Source: Nannochloropsis oceanica
Lineage: Eukaryota > Sar > Eustigmatophyceae > Eustigmatales > Monodopsidaceae
Reading direction: 5' to 3'
NCBI GenBank assembly: GCA_004519485.1
Contig: CP038132.1
Coordinates: 186,001-250,000, forward strand
DNA length: 64,000 bases
Made by a program: the position numbers and the translations under genes. A model generated the notes under the pieces. That model saw only the letters and a program-made list of their open reading frames with translations, was not told the origin of the DNA and did no database searches. Below, one piece after another: positions 3,866 to 49,016 of this stretch. Position 1 is the stretch's first letter. Every line of letters begins with the position of its first letter.

Positions 3866-6010
3866 TTAGTCTAAATCTTCTTCGACCGCATCAGGTACAG
3901 CTATGGGCGACGGCGGCGGTAAAGAAGACGAGTCTCCTTCTCCAACCCTCCCTCCATCTCCTGGTGTGGCCTCCACCTCCCCGCCTACACCCGCCACTCT
4001 TTCTCCTGTGACAGACAACTCTGCTATTGCCGTATCCTCCTCCTTCGCCTTTTCCACCGCACCGTCCTCGGACTCCACCACAGGCTCCTCTTCGGGCAGG
4101 GGCTCGGCCTGCAAATCCTTGCTCCTATAAGCCTTCAGAGGAAAATACCGGCACTTCACTGTCCGCCCATCAAACGACCGACCTTCCAACTTGGCTTGGG
4201 CACGTTTCGATGCCCGAACGTCCCCAAACTCCACAAAAATCAAACCCTGAGCCGTGTCCATTTCCAAAGACACCACATTGCCGTACTTTCGACATTCGTC
4301 GGTCACTTCTTCCTTGATCTCCTCCACCTCCTCCGCATCCATGTCGTCCGCCAGCATATTCTGTAAACGAATCACAGACGAACCGCCTCCTCCCTCGCCA
4401 GGCCTACCGGTTCCCATACTGGCAGTCGCCACCGGCTTGAGCAACATAGTGGCTTGATGGGCTGGGATTTCCTGGATGCTCAATCGCTTCCCGCCCAAGT
4501 CAAGTCCTGCCAAGCCCTTCAATGCCAACCCTGCCTGCGCCCGGTCTTCGTACTCAAAGATGGCGATGCCCTTCGACAGGCCCTCCTTGTCCTTGAGCAT
4601 GTTAAAACTCATGAGTTTCCCAAACGGATCAAGGAGCGCTTTGACGTCCAGCTCCCCCAGCACGTTTGGGACATTCGCCAACATCAAAAAGTGGCCGTGG
4701 GTTTGAACAGGCGTCGGTCCCACTACGGCTGCGGCAGACCCTGTCGTGTGAATGACGGGCATTCCCCCGACCGTGCTGGAGGGCGTCGGGGCGACAGCTG
4801 CGACTGCTGTGGTGGATTGACCTGTGCCGAATGCAGTGGCGGTCGACGTGACGGGAGGAGCAGCTGCAGCTCCCGTACTGGCGGCATCGGCAGCACTTCC
4901 GCCTTTGGCCAGCGTCTCATAAAATTCTTGGTATTCCTTCGGACGGCCCACACGGAGCTGCATCGCCCCCCCACCCACCTGGAGCTTGTCCAGAGCCAGG
5001 GCGCGGTTGGCTTCCTCCAACGACCGAAAATCCACCAGGGCAAACCTGCCATCGGGGCTCATCCAAATCCCCACTACTGGACTCCCCACCCCCAAGGTCA
5101 GTTTCATCTGCTGCATTGCCGCGCTTATAAACTCGGCCAACTGCGGTCCCAACACACCCACGGGCAAATTCCCGACGTAAAGCTGACGGGCGGGTTTTGT
5201 GGAATCCACAAGCGTAAAGGGCGAGGCAGCTGCCAGCCGCGCCGCTGCCAAGGTGTTGTTCAGAACCAACTGCGCCTGTGCCGCGGCTTGGGTGGCAAAG
5301 ACTCGAAGTTGCTTGGTCTGCTCGATTTTCTGGAGGGCCTGCATCACGCCCAATCCTCGGTTTTGACTCAGCATTTCCTGCAGGGTGGGCAGAGGCCCTC
5401 CCATCCCTCCTTCAATCATTATGTCCACCACTCCCGGAGGTAACTCCTCTTTTTTCGCACCATTGCTGCTTTCTTCCCCATCCTCCGAGCGCGACTTCTT
5501 CCGGTGCCGAGAGGAAGAGATTGGGGAACGGGAACGACTCCTCGAACGGCCCCTTCGGCCGCCGTACCGTCCAGGCGGTGTCCGGGAGCGCCCTCGGTTC
5601 CTGTAAGATCCTCCTCCTCCTCGAGGCGGCGAACGAGAACGGCCACGCGACCTGCTGACGGGTGGGCTTCGCCTGCCATTATCACGGCCTCGCGGGCTGG
5701 GGGTACGTCGCCGCCGTTGGCGATCCCGCCAATCATCGCCATCCCCCTCATCGTCGGGGCTCCCTTCCTTGCGGCTGCGCTTCTTTTCCTTTTTCTCCTT
5801 TTTCTCCTTTCTCTCCTTCTTTTCCTTCTTCTCCTTCTTCTCCTTCTTCTCCTTCTTCTTCTTTCGCTCCTTGCCTTCCTCTTCCGAGGCCTCGCCGCTG
5901 GAGGTTGCCTTGACGAAACCCAACACACTGGCAGCCGTCGTGGAGGGTTTGCTGTCACTGCCACTACTGAGGCCAAGGCCGACTGGCGCGGCTTCCAATT
6001 CTTCGTCCAT
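3866..6010 (-). CDS. U2AF2: Splicing factor U2AF large subunit (U2AF65)
   Basis: Binds the polypyrimidine tract at 3' splice sites and recruits U2 snRNP in the nucleus. The 714-residue, intronless frame has a Lys/Glu-rich stretch (about 45-80), an Arg/Ser-rich region (about 100-175; RSRSPPR, RSRSRSRSP), then three RRM-like domains: about 275-355 (RQLYVGNLPVG, FALVDFRSLEEANRAL), about 445-525 (FLMLANVPNVLGELDVKALL, GIAIFEYEDRAQAGLAL) and a C-terminal UHM-type RRM at about 560-655 (VIRLQNMLA, GLIFVEFGDVRASKRA). This order is diagnostic for U2AF65. It is longer than the human protein because of low-complexity insertions (an Ala/Thr-rich linker between RRM1 and RRM2) and an acidic tail. Confidence 0.93.
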   Translation of the reverse strand: MDEELEAAPVGLGLSSGSDSKPSTTAASVLGFVKATSSGEASEEEGKERKKKKEKKEKKEKKEKKERKEKKEKKEKKRSRKEGSPDDEGDGDDWRDRQRRRRTPSPRGRDNGRRSPPVSRSRGRSRSPPRGGGGSYRNRGRSRTPPGRYGGRRGRSRSRSRSPISSSRHRKKSRSEDGEESSNGAKKEELPPGVVDIMIEGGMGGPLPTLQEMLSQNRGLGVMQALQKIEQTKQLRVFATQAAAQAQLVLNNTLAAARLAAASPFTLVDSTKPARQLYVGNLPVGVLGPQLAEFISAAMQQMKLTLGVGSPVVGIWMSPDGRFALVDFRSLEEANRALALDKLQVGGGAMQLRVGRPKEYQEFYETLAKGGSAADAASTGAAAAPPVTSTATAFGTGQSTTAVAAVAPTPSSTVGGMPVIHTTGSAAAVVGPTPVQTHGHFLMLANVPNVLGELDVKALLDPFGKLMSFNMLKDKEGLSKGIAIFEYEDRAQAGLALKGLAGLDLGGKRLSIQEIPAHQATMLLKPVATASMGTGRPGEGGGGSSVIRLQNMLADDMDAEEVEEIKEEVTDECRKYGNVVSLEMDTAQGLIFVEFGDVRASKRAQAKLEGRSFDGRTVKCRYFPLKAYRSKDLQAEPLPEEEPVVESEDGAVEKAKEEDTAIAELSVTGERVAGVGGEVEATPGDGGRVGEGDSSSLPPPSPIAVPDAVEEDLD

Positions 6011-31437: not shown

Positions 31438-31465
31438 GGTATGTGCCCTGCAACGGGCACATACC
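31438..31465. repeat. Perfect 11-bp inverted repeat (hairpin)
   Basis: GGTATGTGCCC (31438-31448) and its exact reverse complement GGGCACATACC (31455-31465) flank a six-base loop, TGCAAC. It lies in the gene-poor region, outside any supported transcript. Confidence 0.85.
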
Positions 31466-31649
31466 AAAATATTTACGATTTTCACCTTTGTCTTTTTCCC
31501 AAGCACCACCCCGCCACTTGACCTGTCGTACAAAAGATGAAAAAGATTCAGGTCTACATATTTCACTACGTGACTTGGTGTGTCTTTTACCTCCGTGTTG
31601 TTCATTTGGCGTTCCCAAGTAATTTCTAATTAATTTTAGGCCGCGAATT

Positions 31650-31865
31650 AAGACTTGTGGCCCGAAGCCATATCCTTCGGCCCGAATTGCCACACACTCC
31701 CCCTTTCATTTGGGCGGGGATTCGAGACTTGTGTCCCAACATCACTTTCTTGGGTCCAAAATTTCGATTCACACTCCCTTGGGCCGCAGTTCGAGACTGA
31801 CTTTTCGTCCCAATTTTCTTCGATCCAAATCTCGATGTACACACTGCCAAATCTCGGGATATCCG
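31650..31865. repeat. Degenerate tandem repeat, three units of about 70 bp
   Basis: Three units begin near 31650, 31724 and 31793. Shared blocks are GACTTGTGkCCC near the unit starts, a 'tcttGGgtCCaaa..TTcGat' or similar middle, CACACTCCC, and TTCGAGACT at the unit joints. The copies have diverged strongly, so the array is old. Confidence 0.5.
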
Positions 31866-34403
31866 CTGTCCGGTAGGAAGTTTGTTAAATTATCCATATG
31901 TGGGTGTGGTAGAGTTACCTCCTTCATCGCCTATTTCGACTCTTTGATAGGGGCGAGAGGGGGAGGGATAAAAGGGAGGGAGGCAGTGTGGGCGTAGAGA
32001 AAGGAAAACAAAGTCATGTTGTAAGGGAGAGAACGAGAAGAGAAGGGGACGAATGTGTTGTGAAATAGAACACTTCATAGGCCAGCACACCAAGAAAATC
32101 ATTGCCATGCTATGGTGGTGCAAAAAATCCCGATTTGCAGCCTTGGAAGGCGTGGCCTCAAAAGAGTATGACTGCAAGCGCAATTACACTGGCTCCTCGT
32201 CCATGGATCCTGCTTTCTACGTGGAGATGGTATCGTAAGTACGTCAAAGAGATGGGTGGATACCTATTGGCATATTGTGCAGGCGGGGACACAAAGAATT
32301 CTGCAGCCATCGGGATCAACGTCGTCCCTTTCCCCATCGCCGACGTCAAGGGGGCTCGGGCTCGCCCTTGTCGGTCCGTGTACCTTTCAAGAGGTGGTAT
32401 CTACTCAAGATAGTGGGGAGGGGTCTCAAGAAGCTGCAAGCTGCAGAGCTTACGAATAACAGGGAGCACTCGTTGGGTATCTTATTCAGTAATCATCCAG
32501 CGTATAGAGGCCTTTTTCAAAAGTCATGGCCTCTTGCAAAGAGGCAGACAGCTAGGACGTGGGGACATCGAGCACCGTGCAAAGGAGCTGCGGGCTGCTG
32601 TCGAAGCGGCCATCTACCACTATGGAACGATTTTACGCAATGCACACCCCCCTCCCCCCCTTGTGCCACCCGCAACTCTCCACGGTGCTGTAGACGGTAG
32701 AGGAGGGAAAGAGTCAACCCTTCTTCCCTTCACGGGGATGCTCAGAGGTTTTCTGGACGGAATATTTGTTGACGCGAAGCTAGCGGCGGGAAAGTATATG
32801 AATGGTCTGTCGGGCATCACTATATTGTTAAGGGCGGGGGAAAGACCTGGAAAGTGTTAGTACTACCGTTTCTGTTTCGCCGGTTCGATATTCCAGCAAT
32901 TATTGCAGCGGGGCTTTGGCAGCAACGTGGTGGAATGTGCGTTGAGCTTTATATACCAACTTAGACAACTAAATCCACGCTCCACGGGTGTGGCTTTAAC
33001 ATAAAATTCGCAAAGTGTTTTACTCGGCAAGACGCACGGGAAGGCGAATGCATTGCCGAAGGTTGTAGTGAGCGATGGTGTACATGCCAGTCAGTGCGTG
33101 CGAGGGGTGATAGACCAATTGCAAGAAAAGTAGAAGAAAGAAACTGCATTCACTCAAAACATACAAACCAAGCAAATATGGGCATGGCGTCGGTTCAATA
33201 GAAGTGAGGTGTACTTACTATAACTAAGGTGTGGATGAAATGGAGGGGGCGTAGGGGCGGAATATGAGCAAGGAGGGGGTAACTATCAGCAAGGGCAGCA
33301 AGCATAGATTTACAGGGATATATTTGCACAACACTGGGATAGTTGTTTGCTAGAGTAGAAAAGATGGACGGAAAAGAAGTATAAAAAACGATGATACCAT
33401 TAGACAAGGCACTTTCGCTCCACTGCACCCATTGGTTTCCATTCCTTTTCCTTTTCTGCGTGCTCGTGCCCGCCATACAAAAGGACAACTTCCTTGAACG
33501 GTCGCACGATCCAACTTATCTTTGTTGCTGTAAAAATAAGCGGAGCTCCTGGGAAGTGACACTTTTCAAAGGTGGCCCATTTCGTTGGGTTATGGGGCAT
33601 TAGCGAGACGACATGACTTCAGAGGTGTCAATTGATTCAGAGTCTGATTTCGAAAGTACGGCAGGGGGAAGGAGTCATGCGGGTGAGTCTTTCTCAACAT
33701 GACACTGTAAATCTAATAATCCTCAACAACATGTCGGCTAAGCTTGTCGTCGATGTCGGGGCTCTAAGTGAAAGTAATGCTCAGCGATAGTAGTTCCCTT
33801 TGGACATCCAGCACGAGAACTCGACAAACAACGGCTGACTGGGCCTCCTCCGATGAGCTCAAAAGTGGGGATACTATTGGGGTCTACTAATCCTAAAACT
33901 TCTGGACCCCCCACCACTCTACGTGATACATATTCTGATAATTCAGAGTTAAATCGCCATACTGGCAACAGTCCACTGACATGATGGGTTGACTTGTTGG
34001 AAAAGGCTCACATGAGAGAAAGTCGACGAGAGGGAACACCCATTCGACCTGGTTGTCTCCTTAAAGTGCTCTTGCTTGATCTGTCGCGTCGTCTTCAAGG
34101 CCACGCCTACCCCGAGTCTTGCCCTGACTTTTGTCGCTGAGGTTTCCTCCGCCAGGACAACATTGCATGTGCTGAGCCGCTATTTTCTTACTCTGTCCAA
34201 TGTCAAACATGATCACACATCCATACTTAGTCTGCTGGGCCGAGATTGCTTAGATATCTTGCTTGGTGGGCGCTGCCGCTTGCGGCGAGTGGAGAAGCCA
34301 ACACAGCCCAATTCGTGTCTCCGGACAGGGTGTGGGAGGCCCCCTTGCAACGCACACGAGCACCAGCAACACCACCAGCAACAGCAACAGTGCGGTAGTC
34401 GGC

Positions 34404-42109: not shown

Positions 42110-42285
42110 TAGTTCTTTTTGGGCGTTCCTACATCCCTCTAGAACTATCGCATGCAACCTGCGTCTTCGAGGACTTGCATACGAGGGGGAGCCTTCCAAC
42201 AATAAAATGTTGTCATCCCTTATTCCTCGTCCGAGTTTTACTAGCGACTTTGACAGGTGTTTTGAGGTTGGTCAAGGGTCACACA
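42110..42285 (-). mobile_element. Dispersed repeat copy A: truncated 3' terminus of the element seen at 48.8 kb, inverted
   Basis: Reads on the minus strand as a close relative of 48790-48968. About 130 bases of the core differ at roughly ten positions by eye, including the shared blocks TCGAGGACTTGCATACGAGG and GGAGCCTTCCAACAATAAA. It keeps the end-proximal inverted repeat (TAGTTCT at 42110-42116, AGAACTA at 42141-42147). The Fanzor-type coding end present next to copy B is absent here, so copy A is truncated at its inner side. Confidence 0.75.
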
Positions 42286-45051: not shown

Positions 45052-45209
45052 TTAACGTTTTTCGTCCGAGGGGGACGAGGATGAGTCAGAATCGTAACCC
45101 GAATCGGGAGAGGAGGAGGAGGAGGAGGAAGATGAAGAGGAAGAGGAGGAGGAGGAGCCGGAAGAGGAAGAGGGGGAGGATCCACTACTACTACTACTAC
45201 TGCTACTAC

Positions 45210-45285
<76 letters not shown>

Positions 45286-45861
45286 ACTGCTACTACGACT
45301 ACTGCCGCTGCTGCTGCTGCTGTCAGAATCGCTGCTGCTGTCAGAATCGCTGCTGCTGTCACTATTCGACGAGTGAGAGGAAGAAGGAGAGGAAGAAGAC
45401 GAGGAAGAGGGTGAAGGAGACCGACGCCGCTTCTTCCCTCCACTTATCTTCCTCTTACTGCCGCTAGACGCCTTTTTGCTTTTGCTCTTACTTTTCTTGG
45501 ATTTGTTCTCCTCCGCCTGCATTTTACCCTCCTTTTGTTCCTTGGTCTCGTACCCGGGAGGCACATCCAGGGAGAAGGAAGGTTTCAGGCCTGGGTTTTC
45601 TAAGATAGCAGTCCTACTCTCTCGCTTCTGGTAGGGCCGAGCTTTCGCCTTGCATTCGTATGTCCAGTGTCCTGGGTGATTACACTTCTGGCACATAGCG
45701 CTCTTTTTATCCTCTCGCATGCGTTGGTAAGGACCCTTGCGAAGGTCAGTCACGACCGTCCTCCGTCCCCCGCCCAAGAGGTGGGAAGACATGGGAACTG
45801 GCGGGAAGATGATTGTTGCGGTTGGCTGCTTCCTCTTGCTCCTCCGTGCGCTCTCCAACAA
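45052..45861 (-). CDS. ZCCHC10: ZCCHC10-like zinc-knuckle protein with long poly-Ser tail
   Basis: The N-terminal region KKSAMCQKCNHPGHWTYECK contains one CCHC zinc knuckle (C-x2-C-x4-H-x4-C), followed by ARPYQKRESRTAIL as in ZCCHC10. Lys/Ser-rich segments and a very long Ser/Asp/Gly tail follow, as in animal ZCCHC10, which ends in a Ser-rich low-complexity region. The protein probably binds RNA in the nucleus. Family starts resemble MSSHLLGGG..., so the true ATG is likely 45792, giving 246 residues; the 45861 start adds 23 residues of no clear character. The Ser tract is encoded by a long triplet repeat and is therefore likely to vary in length. Confidence 0.75.
45184..45300. repeat. (TAC)n/(TGC)n triplet microsatellite inside the ZCCHC10-like gene
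   Basis: Near-perfect TAC triplets turn to TGC on the plus strand, encoding Ser on the minus strand (AGT/AGC). Short copies of a CTGCTGTCAGAATCG unit follow at about 45318-45360. Confidence 0.9.
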
Positions 45862-46243: not shown

Positions 46244-46978
46244 TCACAGAGTGTCCAGGTCCCCTGCCGCCTTAGCCTCGGGCACCCACGAGGCTCCTTT
46301 CACGTAGACCTCCTCAATCTCGCTCCCCACCAAGAAACGAGCCATATCAAAATCGTGGCTGCTCATGTCCAAAAAGATGCCGCCGCTTGTCTTGAGGTAC
46401 TCAGCAGGGGGTGGGGCCTGATCCCGACTTACGATGCGGAAAGTCCGCATTTCGCCAATTGCGCCTTGCGTGATCTGCTTCTTGACATTTTGAAAGTTGA
46501 TGTCGAAGCGACGTTGGAAGCCGAGGATGAGCTTGGTGCCCGCCTTAGCCGCAGCTTGAGTGCAGGCGTCAATAGCAGAGAGATCGTTCGAGATCGGTTT
46601 CTCACAGAAGTCGTGTTTGCCACGCTCGACGGCCGACATGATTTGCTCCACGTGGCAGGGCGTGGGTGAAGCCACCACCACGGCATGCACATCGTCGCGG
46701 TCAAGCAGCTCGAAGTAGTCCTTGTGGTAGGTGGGCATGCCACCCGTTTGTCCTATTAACTTCTTACCCATCTCCTCGAAGGGGTCCGTAATGGCCACAA
46801 GCCGCGCGCCTGGCGTGTGGAAAGCGAGGGTATTGCCGTGTATCTGTCCGATGCGCCCGCAGCCAACGACGCCTACTCCCAACGGTGTTCGGGACATGCG
46901 GAGAAAGAAGCCCCAAGTTAGGACCGGGAAATGGAAGGCGAGACTTAGAAGGACGACGACGGCCTGCTTGAAGGCCAT
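46244..46978 (-). CDS. Gfo/Idh/MocA oxidoreductase (inositol-dehydrogenase-like), C-terminally short
   Basis: NAD(P)-dependent oxidoreductase acting on sugars or inositols. After a hydrophobic leader (AVVVLLSLAFHFPVLTWGFF) with Phe at the end, of plastid or secretory type, the Rossmann fold starts LGVGVVGCGRIGQIHGNTLA. The family motif CEKPIS is present (catalytic Lys), then GFQRRFDINF and the active-site segment GGIFLDMSSHDFDMARFL (Asp/His). The frame stops at 244 residues, directly after EEVYVKGASW...GDLDTL; relatives run about 100 residues further (GDlDta.v.lrf..G...). No downstream exon with the missing sheet was found, so the gene looks truncated at its 3' end, though an unusual intron (GTGACA donor) cannot be excluded. 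Confidence 0.75.
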   Translation of the reverse strand: MAFKQAVVVLLSLAFHFPVLTWGFFLRMSRTPLGVGVVGCGRIGQIHGNTLAFHTPGARLVAITDPFEEMGKKLIGQTGGMPTYHKDYFELLDRDDVHAVVVASPTPCHVEQIMSAVERGKHDFCEKPISNDLSAIDACTQAAAKAGTKLILGFQRRFDINFQNVKKQITQGAIGEMRTFRIVSRDQAPPPAEYLKTSGGIFLDMSSHDFDMARFLVGSEIEEVYVKGASWVPEAKAAGDLDTL

Positions 46979-46992
46979 GCTTCGATTCGAGT

Positions 46993-48723
46993 GTGACCGA
47001 TGTAATACGGATCATACTGGTGGCACTTGCTGAAGCACGACCCCGGGCAGCTGCAGGAGGAGGAGGAGGAGGGGGAAGGGATAGCAGGATGGATACAGGA
47101 GGGGATCCTGGAAGGGTAGGAGTGGGAGTCGGGGCGGCCGGAGCGGCAACAGGAGGAGGAGGAGAGGGAACGAGGGGAATCTCCACTATACTCTCTTTAC
47201 CCGGAGAACAGGCAGCACGAGCACTAGAAACCATTGGTAGAATTCGTGCGGCACTTACTGGAGGAATGGAGAAGGGAAAGAGAAAGATAGTGAGGCCGCT
47301 CCGACGAGGGGGAAGAGGGGGAGGAGAAGGAGGAGGAGGGGGAGAAGGAGGGAGAGGGGGAGGAGGGAGAGGGGGAGGAGGAGGAGGAGGAGGAGGGGGA
47401 GGGGGAGGAGGAGGAGGAGGGGGAGGAGGAGGAGGGGGAGAAGGAGGAGGGGGAGGAGGAGGAGGACGAGAAGGAGGGGGAGAAGGAGGAGGGGGAGGAG
47501 GAGGAGGACGAGAAGGAGGAGGCGGTGGAAGACGGGAAGAAGAAGGTAGAGGAGGAGGAGGGGAAGGAGGGAAAGGAGGAGGGGAAGGCAAGAAAGCTGG
47601 GGGTGGGACGGAAGTGGGAGGGAGGGGATATGTGGGAGCCAGTGCAACATCAGCACCAGCACCAACACCGGCAGTGGGAGGAGGGGAAGGAGGAGGGGGA
47701 GGAAGAAGAGGGAAAAGAACCCGGGCTGCGGAAGCAGCAGCAGCCGCCGGGATGCAGCTGACCATACTGGTGGCACTTGCTGAAGCACGACCCCGGGCAG
47801 CTGCAGGAGGAGGAGGAGGAGGAGGGAGGGATAGCAGGATGGATACAGGAGGGGATCCTGGAAGGGTAGGAGTGGGAGGAGTCGGGGCGGCCGGAGCGGC
47901 AACAGGAGGAGGAGGAGAGGGAACGAGGGGAAGGAGGAGGAGGAGGAGGAGGAGGAGGGGGAGGAGGACGAGGGAGGAGGAGGAGGAGGAGGAGGAGGAG
48001 GAGGAGGAGAAGAAGGAGGGGGAGAAGGAGGAGGAGAAGAAGGAGGAGGGGGGGGAGGAGGACGACGAGGAGGAGGAGGACGAGAAGGAGGAGGCGGTGG
48101 AAGACGGGAAGAAGAAGGTGGAGGATGAGGAGGAGAAGAAGAAGAAGAAGAAGAGGAGGACGAGAAGGAGGAGGCGGTGGAAGACGGGAAGAAGAAGGTG
48201 GAGGAGGAGGAGGAGAAGAAGAAGAAGAGGAGAAAGAGGAGGAAGAAGAATGGGGAGGAGGAGGAGGGGGAGGAGGAGGGAGAGGAGGAGGGAGACGAGG
48301 AGGGGGTGGAAGGGGAAGGGGCGGAGGAGGCGGAGGCGGTGGAAGCAGAGGACGGGGGGGGAAGGCGGAGGAGGCGGAGGCGGTGGAAGCAGAGGAGGAG
48401 GAGGGGAAGGTGGAGGAGGCGGAGGAGGCGGAGGCGGAGGAGGCGGAGGAGGAGGGGGCGGAGGCGGTGGAATTAGAGGGGAAGGAGGCGGAGGAGAACG
48501 AGGCGGAGGCGGAGGAGGACGAGGACGAGGCAGAGGAGGAGGTCATGGGCGGGCCATCCGAGGACTGTATTGGTGTGACACCTGTGAACAGTTCGTGTCC
48601 CGGGACGGCAATGGGGCACGTAACATCCTGCGGGTGTACAGGAGTATGGTCCGTGGAGAAGCTCGTCCCCATGATCTGCGGTTTGGTCAACCACGGCAAG
48701 ATATGCGGACACTCTATGTGTAG
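46993..48723 (+). CDS. 576-codon open frame: low-complexity Gly/Glu/Arg body with Fanzor/TnpB-like C-terminus
   Basis: An open frame runs through 1.5 kb of GGA/GAG repeats and ends in about 60 ordinary codons. Most of it ([25 protein letters not shown] types) is open simply because purine triplets contain few stops, so it is not good evidence for a protein. Two non-repetitive islands exist: LPGEQAARALETIGRIRAAL (about residues 73-110) and the C-terminus from GRAIRGLYWCDTCEQFVSRD onward. The latter is a real family signature (see the separate entry). A spliced Fanzor-type gene could use only these islands; I cannot tell. Confidence 0.3.
   Translation: MTDVIRIILVALAEARPRAAAGGGGGGGRDSRMDTGGDPGRVGVGVGAAGAATGGGGEGTRGISTILSLPGEQAARALETIGRIRAALTGGMEKGKRKIVRPLRRGGRGGGEGGGGGEGGRGGGGRGGGGGGGGGGGGGGGGGGGGGGGEGGGGGGGGREGGGEGGGGGGGGREGGGGGRREEEGRGGGGEGGKGGGEGKKAGGGTEVGGRGYVGASATSAPAPTPAVGGGEGGGGGRRGKRTRAAEAAAAAGMQLTILVALAEARPRAAAGGGGGGGRDSRMDTGGDPGRVGVGGVGAAGAATGGGGEGTRGRRRRRRRRRGRRTREEEEEEEEEEEEKKEGEKEEEKKEEGGEEDDEEEEDEKEEAVEDGKKKVEDEEEKKKKKKRRTRRRRRWKTGRRRWRRRRRRRRRGERGGRRMGRRRRGRRRERRRETRRGWKGKGRRRRRRWKQRTGGEGGGGGGGGSRGGGGEGGGGGGGGGGGGGGGGGGGGGIRGEGGGGERGGGGGGRGRGRGGGHGRAIRGLYWCDTCEQFVSRDGNGARNILRVYRSMVRGEARPHDLRFGQPRQDMRTLYV
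47013..47175. repeat. Direct repeat unit 1 (pairs with 47763-47930)
   Basis: Begins CATACTGGTGGCACTTGCTG and continues through GATAGCAGGATGGATACAGG to about GGAACGAGGGGA. The second copy, 750 bp downstream, is almost identical apart from small GGA length changes, so the duplication is recent. Confidence 0.85.
47300..48545 (+). repeat. Purine-strand (GGA/GAG/GAA)n tract, about 1.2 kb
   Basis: Nearly all purine on the plus strand, made of GGA, GAG, GAA and GGCGGA units, broken by the second direct-repeat copy and a short mixed patch near 47600-47760. Such mirror-repeat purine tracts can form triplex or R-loop structures and vary in length; assemblies often misplace copies. Confidence 0.9.
47763..47930. 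repeat. Direct repeat unit 2 (pairs with 47013-47175)
   Basis: Same sequence and orientation as unit 1. A smaller unit, GGCGGTGGAAGACGGGAAGA, recurs at about 47521, 48091 and 48172 within the purine tract, showing repeated local duplication. Confidence 0.85.
48545..48723 (+). mobile_element. Fanzor/TnpB-family C-terminal coding segment (zinc-ribbon half and RuvC-III motif)
   Basis: The plus-strand frame reads GLYWCDTCEQFVSRDGNGAR followed by NILRVYRSMVRGEARPHDLR and a stop. C-x2-C (codons at 48574 and 48583), then R-D-x-N-x-A-R-N-I (Asp codon 48604-48606), is the signature shared by TnpB, Cas12f and eukaryotic Fanzor proteins: the second half of the zinc ribbon followed by the third RuvC catalytic Asp. 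Fanzors are RNA-guided nucleases carried by eukaryotic transposons, and their guide RNA usually overlaps the element's end 3' of the gene. The RuvC-I/II regions and the recognition lobe are not visible upstream, where only purine repeats lie, so this is probably a remnant or the last exon of a gene I cannot resolve. Confidence 0.65.
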
Positions 48724-48789
48724 CGTTCCCGCTGACCTCCTCTTTTCTCCTCCTTCCCCTTCTCCTCCTGGCCCTGTGTGGGCCGTCCG

Positions 48790-48968
48790 GGGACTTTGCC
48801 AGGTCAAAAAACCTATCAAAGTCGCCAGAAAAACTCGGACGAGAAATAAGGGATGACACAAATTTATTGTTGGAAGGCTCCCCCTCGTATGCAAGTCCTC
48901 GAAGACGTCAGGTTGCATGCGATAGTTCTAGAGAGATGTAGGAGCAAGCAATAGAGCAAAAGAACTAT
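48790..48968 (+). mobile_element. Dispersed repeat copy B: 3' flank of the Fanzor-type segment, with terminal hairpin
   Basis: Starts 66 bp after the Fanzor-type stop and is the inverted relative of 42110-42285. It ends in a perfect 8-bp inverted repeat (ATAGTTCT 48922-48929, AGAACTAT 48961-48968) with a 31-nt loop, after which similarity to copy A stops and an AT microsatellite begins. This is where TnpB/Fanzor elements place the guide (omega) RNA and right end; that function is inference. Confidence 0.7.
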
Positions 48969-48975
48969 TCAGCAT

Positions 48976-49016
48976 TGATAATAATAAATAATAATACATA
49001 ATACATAATACATAAT
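48976..49016. repeat. AT microsatellite (AATAAT/ATACATA units)
   Basis: Short AATAAT units followed by ATACATA units, directly outside repeat copy B. Confidence 0.8.

Follow-up and report, generated by a model that had tools for sequence, protein, structure and literature searches.

A 64,000-nt stretch of the Nannochloropsis oceanica genome (referred to here as the window; G000:C6:186001-250000 of a genome of 29.26 Mb in 32 contigs) contains two copies of a conserved tail that closes with a short hairpin. A sequence-only reading had described this tail as beginning at position 48790 behind a Fanzor-type reading frame and as being both the right end of a mobile element and a candidate guide (omega) RNA. 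The question raised by the locus is whether the tail is kept as the end of an element, as the scaffold of an RNA, or as both. The features on which the analysis is based are the following.

47010..48967, plus strand: copy B, a probable 5'-truncated Fanzor1 element with its start inside a Gly-rich insert (alignment to longer copies, right-end pattern)
48544..48723, plus strand: C-terminal coding remnant (...GLYWCDTCEQFVSRDGNGARNILRVY...LYV) with the second zinc knuckle and the RuvC-III RD, stop codon TAG at 48721-48723 (TNB hit below cut-off)
48724..48967, plus strand: non-coding 3' tail of B including its right end, a candidate omega-RNA scaffold (conservation, fold)
48923..48967, plus strand: terminal inverted repeat of B, TAGTTCT / 31-nt loop / AGAACTA (sequence)
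48968..48990, plus strand: right flank of B, the putative guide-coding place if the tail is an omega RNA (flanks differ between copies)
42110..42285, minus strand: copy A, tail-only, 5'-truncated and inverted, right end at 42110 (sequence comparison)
31443..32069, minus strand: fragment W, a tail-less 5' portion of this element family (98% identity to region 4159-4785 of locus L017)

Results

Two tail copies and a further fragment in the window

The sequence comparison confirmed that the tail is common to B and to the inverted copy A, with right ends at 48967 and 42110, respectively. Both copies carry the same 7-bp terminal stem TAGTTCT/AGAACTA, the strands of which are located at 48923-48929 and 48961-48967 in B, and the loops differ in length (31 nt in B and 24 nt in A, on the minus strand). 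The seven pairs described previously are thus present, whereas an eighth pair has to be dropped, as one of its bases (48968) belongs to the flank. The last three bases of the terminal inverted repeat, CTA, are identical to the target motif described below. The left end of B was placed at 47010 by comparison with c9, c27 and L011, three of the four longer copies aligned, and at 47056 by the alignment to L028. The alignment of A reaches to about 42267, and a weaker likeness can be followed by eye to 42285. No target-site duplication was seen for either A or B. The region represented by fragment W is also located upstream of the Fanzor1 frame in the C9 copy.

Additional observations were made in the surroundings of these features. 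A perfect 11-bp palindrome, GGTATGTGCCC-GTTGCA-GGGCACATACC, is located at 31438-31465, within fragment W or at its border, and its core is also present in L020, L062 and L063 (three of 67 loci). The minus strand encodes a GFO/IDH/MocA oxidoreductase according to Pfam at 46244-46978, with the start of the open reading frame at a distance of roughly 30 bp to the left end of B, and a CCHC zinc-knuckle protein with a long serine run derived from a triplet repeat at 45052-45861.

A repeat family with a constant right end and variable left ends

A genome search with the 179-base tail yielded at least 41 listed matches, the query itself included, from 162 first-look candidates of which only the best ones were scored. 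The right-end pattern TAGTTCTAGAGRGATGTAGGA-N(1-30)-AAAAGAACTA gave 50 exact matches in the genome, among them A and B, and its reversed control gave none; a recurrence of this size lies well beyond chance. Retrieval of 60 loci provided 42 distinct copies, each trimmed at its right end; they were picked by regular expressions requiring this end near AAAAGAACTA, and the uniformity of the right end in the set is partly a matter of construction. More divergent right ends and loci without a recognisable end exist beyond the 42 copies.

Within this set the right end is constant and the left ends are variable. In 33 copies the distance between the right end and the left limit, which was set by hand, is 51 to 932 bp, and the other nine copies are longer. 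In 14 of the 42 copies the sequence comprises less than 250 bp, and the other 28 reach past the 250-bp mark, counted from the right end, into Fanzor coding sequence. Position 48790 does not represent the start of a feature; it is the place where the 5'-truncated copy A begins. The longer copies run on for 2-4 kb or more and again have several left starts, some of which are common to four copies each. A common left end was not found among the longer copies compared, and position 4023 of L017 was rejected as the true left end, because four other copies remain homologous beyond it on the left. Compared with L017, internal deletions were detected in L006, L020 and L023. The loop of the terminal hairpin comprises 19-39 nt in 41 of the 42 copies, and tail copies are up to 98% alike. 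The sequence outside the hairpin varies between copies, as had been anticipated for a guide: the 20-nt right flanks share a mean pairwise identity of 0.27 (maximum 0.65), which is expected of any transposon end.

The assignment as an element right end was borne out by a sharp terminus, unlike flanks, target-site duplications in some copies and a Fanzor1-like gene upstream of the tail in the longer ones. The tail is probably the right (3') end of a 5'-truncated, 3'-anchored and apparently non-autonomous Fanzor1 element of at least 4 kb.

Unusual arrangements were noted as well. L012 and L015 (C11:850176-850525) are arranged tail to tail at a distance of 12 bp, with CTA on both strands at this place, and a tail-to-tail arrangement is also found at L085. 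Two different sequences precede a shared 5' region in L120, L121, L123 and L125 on the one hand and in L127 and L128 on the other, suggesting chimeric or alternative left parts.

Target-site duplications begin with CTA, preceded by a pyrimidine

An exact search starting from CTA showed that 11 of the 42 copies are bordered by target-site duplications beginning with CTA and 8 bp or longer, whereas 0.38 were expected; the other 31 copies have no exact duplication of this length. A test at the truncation points, with expectations derived from flank swapping, yielded duplications of at least 8 bp in eight of 33 copies versus 0.14 expected, and all eight begin at position -3, though -4 to +4 were permitted. 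The base preceding CTA is C in nine and T in two of the 11 duplications (C or T in 11 of 11, P 0.0005), resulting in the motif YCTA in each of them, and the base following CTA is not conserved. The duplications of L025 (8 bp) and L048 (12 bp) are less sure, as they flank long stretches that could not be assigned to the family; without them nine duplications are left, with C before CTA in seven and T in two. The duplication of L014 is located 826 bp from the right end, compared with an alignment limit of 710, indicating that some left limits are too short.

The longer copies carry a Fanzor1-like gene

Fanzor proteins are related to CRISPR nucleases. The longer copies carry a Fanzor1-like gene. 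The open reading frame beside B is unable to encode a complete nuclease, since B starts at 47010 within the Gly-rich insert. This frame contains only the C-terminal motif GLYWCDTCEQFVSRDGNGARNIL, with a Pfam hit to PF07282 (Cas12f1-like TNB) at E 0.06-0.07, below the cut-off; the second zinc knuckle and the RuvC-III motif are the only parts present, and the RuvC-I/II region is absent. The C-terminus of the B remnant gave 110 genome matches at E up to 10 (105 below 0.001), several of which are split pieces of one copy.

The motif organisation is seen in L022, a 5'-truncated copy in which DPG-x154-E-x6-HLDC, a 77-residue Gly-rich spacer and CNTC-x6-D, that is all three RuvC motifs, are located within one open stretch of 456 amino acids. 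The C9 copy has an open stretch of 887 amino acids that covers the N-terminal region through the first knuckle, after which a stop separates RuvC-III, and in the C27 copy RuvC-III is split off by a frame change. A whole protein in one frame was not seen among these three copies. The published Fanzor pattern, according to the available text of PMC10711439, comprises the RuvC-I DPG and a RuvC-II glutamate six residues before the first knuckle, with the spacing DPG-x(120-160)-E (printed there as '120160', which we took as 120-160). The RuvC-I/II spacing of L022 (DPG-x154-E-x6) lies within this range, and its RuvC-III aspartate (CNTC-x6-D) follows the second knuckle within the 4-8 residues of Fanzor1. 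The Fanzor1 zinc finger CxxC-x(12,18)-CxxC is altered, as the first knuckle reads HLDC and the knuckles are 77 residues apart owing to the Gly-rich insert; the second CxxC knuckle is intact in 49 of 57 parsed rows (of 61). The predicted product of the long copies thus fits a Fanzor1-like nuclease, with motifs that agree with the published pattern except for one zinc cysteine and the spacer.

Profile similarity of the Fanzor frame is weak (PF07282, E 0.064; NF040570, E 0.026; phrog_506 transposase, E 0.014). Comparisons with PDB, Pfam, NCBIfam, PHROGs, phages and viral contigs gave weak hits and no closer relative, and no Fanzor chain was present among the PDB rows listed (33 rows, and the best 60 of 293 in a second search). 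Pieces of the same motifs in broken frames occur in L110 and L111, which are older, decayed relatives. Moreover, L065, L067, L113 and L115 form a second decayed Fanzor-like family that is distinct from the tail family, with the motifs LDPG in L067 and L113 and CSSCG in L065 and L067.

Signs of selection on the coding part and the tail

Codons with stops were skipped in the comparison of young and old copies. Seven chosen young copies show pN 0.030 and pS 0.154 in the C-terminus with a tail distance of 0.097, and six old copies show pN 0.196 and pS 0.176 (pN > pS) with a tail distance of 0.246; between old and young copies the values are pN 0.169, pS 0.329 and 0.285 for the tail. A pN/pS value of 0.44 was obtained for 16 of 20 stop-free sequences. 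The evidence for coding selection is uneven, and the tail is somewhat, but not strikingly, constrained.

The terminal stem and the fold of the tail

The combination of an identical stem with a variable loop had been taken as a sign that the fold matters. In a count of 65 rows, 23 of which are divergent and were typed by hand from the alignment output, 54 keep all seven pairs (wobble allowed), eight keep six and three keep five, so that the stem is not maintained in all copies; 17 of 40 divergent loci with an undefined stem or end were left out of this count, including L085, which has lost the 5' strand of the stem. The changed cells are 14 broken, nine one-sided and five two-sided, i.e. they break pairing as often as they keep it, and both strands are about as conserved as the remainder of the end. 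Covariation of the terminal stem was consequently rejected as a sign of an RNA fold.

The tail as a whole gives a mixed picture. A fold with 44 pairs was modelled for 48767-48967 and its relatives in an alignment of 33 sequences (A1), comprising 33 of 41 non-redundant rows out of 66; the rows L078, L080, L083, L087, L090, L092, L093 and L103 were dropped at the last step, as their end is missing or parts are deleted, and L070, L073, L095 and L098 were dropped earlier. The structure was drawn by hand from members of A1 and is thereby favoured over slid controls. Two-sided changes occur in 10 pairs and 21 cells, compared with 5.9 and 9.5 after shuffling (0 of 500 for the 21-cell count), which argues for an RNA structure. 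On the other hand, paired cells amount to 87.6% versus 86.1% after shuffling, further pair types to 34 versus 34.5, and 14 of the 21 two-sided cells reside in the helix 163-175 and the pair 155-229 and may represent few events. In the consensus computed by RNAalifold itself, the covariation term is -0.53 and the terminal stem is absent. The minimum free energy fold of B likewise lacks this stem, and that of A forms it; the folding z values are -2.25 for B, -1.61 for A and -1.24 for L108. Among the older copies, a terminal TGTAG-GAAA-CTACA hairpin is present in L104 and L108 and in imperfect form in L101 and L106, whereas L102, L105 and L107 have no GAAA hairpin. Rfam gave no hit for the tail. 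These data point to modest covariation across the whole tail.

Discussion

How the element may have spread

In the reading that we favour with some reserve, the tail is first of all the cis-acting end of the element. New copies would be laid down starting from the right end, the terminal CTA of which would match the YCTA target, and copying would usually stop early, which would account for 5'-truncated copies like A and B. Mobilisation would depend on machinery acting in trans, and the most likely route is a DNA mechanism of the one-ended Helitron type, which has been proposed for the Fanzor1 families CRe of Chlamydomonas. That precedent, together with the lack of a clear reverse transcriptase, provides the main grounds for preferring a DNA mechanism. 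Helitron2 elements combine a 3' hairpin with a hairpin at the 5' terminus, and Helitron1 elements end in CTRR; here a 3' inverted repeat is present, a left end was not found and the base following CTA is variable. The profile Helitron_like_N (PF14214) had no match in the genome, a weak negative result since no control genome matched either, and no Rep or helicase element sharing the 3' end of the element was seen. PIF1 gave 21 genome matches, eight on C17:631880-664281 and four on C18:823959-837049, without a link to the right end of the element; the 1.2-kb PIF1 piece that was read is interrupted, and the clusters on C17 and C18 are possible Helitron remains.

The fixed 3' end, the 5' truncation and the duplications also suit LINE-type priming. 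In this alternative the tail is the 3' tail of elements copied via RNA by target-primed reverse transcription, the RNA end ...AGAACUA pairing with the nicked target and early stops producing the truncation; the variable length of the duplications, the CTA common to element end and target, and the internal deletions in some copies agree with it. Yet the RVT_1 profile gave no match over the cut-off in 29.26 Mb, with three hits below it, though the tail copies of up to 98% likeness suggest fairly recent activity, and no reverse transcriptase was noticed by eye in the long copies, the left part of which is incomplete. Furthermore, a survey of Nannochloropsis oceanica lists, in the available text, two LINE copies that together comprise 659 bp, and it ranks Helitrons first in abundance among the transposons (PMC3499364). 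We consider LINE-type copying rather unlikely. A SINE or satellite unrelated to Fanzor that adjoins the frame by chance would explain the tail-only copy A and the copies below 250 bp, but it is contradicted by the majority of copies that reach the coding region and by the C9 and L022 copies, in which tail, C-terminus and RuvC region are joined; this explanation is highly improbable.

A possible additional role as guide RNA

A role as Fanzor omega-RNA scaffold, with the right flank as guide and the hairpin kept for the RNA fold, is compatible with the tail being a cis-acting end. Of the earlier proposal, the position between the Fanzor1 stop and the right end stands, while the conservation of the terminal stem no longer serves as evidence for a fold. 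In SpuFz1, as far as described in the available text of PMC10432273, about 75 nt before the right end and 14-15 nt of the flank form the RNA, and the tail sits in the corresponding place. An omega RNA of the present family would cover the tail together with about 14-20 nt of flank and be bound by the nuclease. The excess of two-sided changes, the fold of B and the GAAA hairpins of older copies speak for this role; the broken pairs of the terminal stem, the control-like proportions of paired cells and pair types, the concentration of changes in one helix and one pair, the RNAalifold result, the folding z values of A and L108, the old copies without the GAAA hairpin and the Rfam result speak against it. 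A guide RNA made from the tail is plausible. To the additional function as omega-RNA scaffold of Fanzor1, in which the right flank would serve as guide and YCTA would be the adjacent motif, we give a little less than an even chance.

An extended version of this role would regard every truncated copy as a guide unit with the tail as scaffold, and YCTA as the adjacent motif recognised by Fanzor1 proteins from a few source genes. The RNA of a locus would guide cleavage to the empty allele (YCTA plus target), and the filled site would be spared, the ACTA at the element end being a near-miss of the motif and the left duplication of a filled site matching just the first 5-12 guide bases; the genome would then contain a large collection of ghost guides that rely on Fanzor1 acting in trans. 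We regard this as improbable, in part since none of the copies read has the complete protein in a single frame.

Comparison with known systems

The closest known system, judged from the available text of PMC3627910, is represented by the Fanzor1 families CRe-1/2/3 of Chlamydomonas reinhardtii, which were described as non-autonomous Helitron2 elements with 5' truncation, an intact 3' end and duplications of 7-19 bp (Bao and Jurka 2013, PMC3627910). Shared features are a Fanzor1 gene, many copies with a 3' end that is intact in almost all of them, 5' truncation along with internal deletions, and duplications of variable length right after a fixed target motif. In contrast, the target is YCTA here and TTTT in CRe-1/2/3 (PMC3627910), the terminal CTA repeats the target here, a Gly-rich insert is located in the zinc finger, and neither a 5' end nor a 5' hairpin or RepHel partner was found for the present family. 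Table 1 of the same report lists a Fanzor1 named NOc of Nannochloropsis oceanica, which could be the very family of the tail element.

The SpuFz1 elements and ghost loci of Spizellomyces punctatus, as far as the available text of PMC10432273 describes them, likewise have a conserved region between the Fanzor stop and the right end followed by a differing flank, and they include many copies without a usable Fanzor gene. They differ in being two-ended ghost elements, whereas 5' truncation prevails here and inverted repeats at two ends were not recognised; moreover, the distance from stop to right end is 244 nt in B versus about 80 nt in SpuFz1 (PMC10432273).

The tail family would add another example of Fanzor1 elements spreading from a single constant 3' end and becoming 5'-truncated, here at a different target motif. 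Its dozens of junctions allow the target motif, the possible guide and the possible self-protection to be read directly, and one small genome thereby makes the use of Fanzor to its transposon a testable question.
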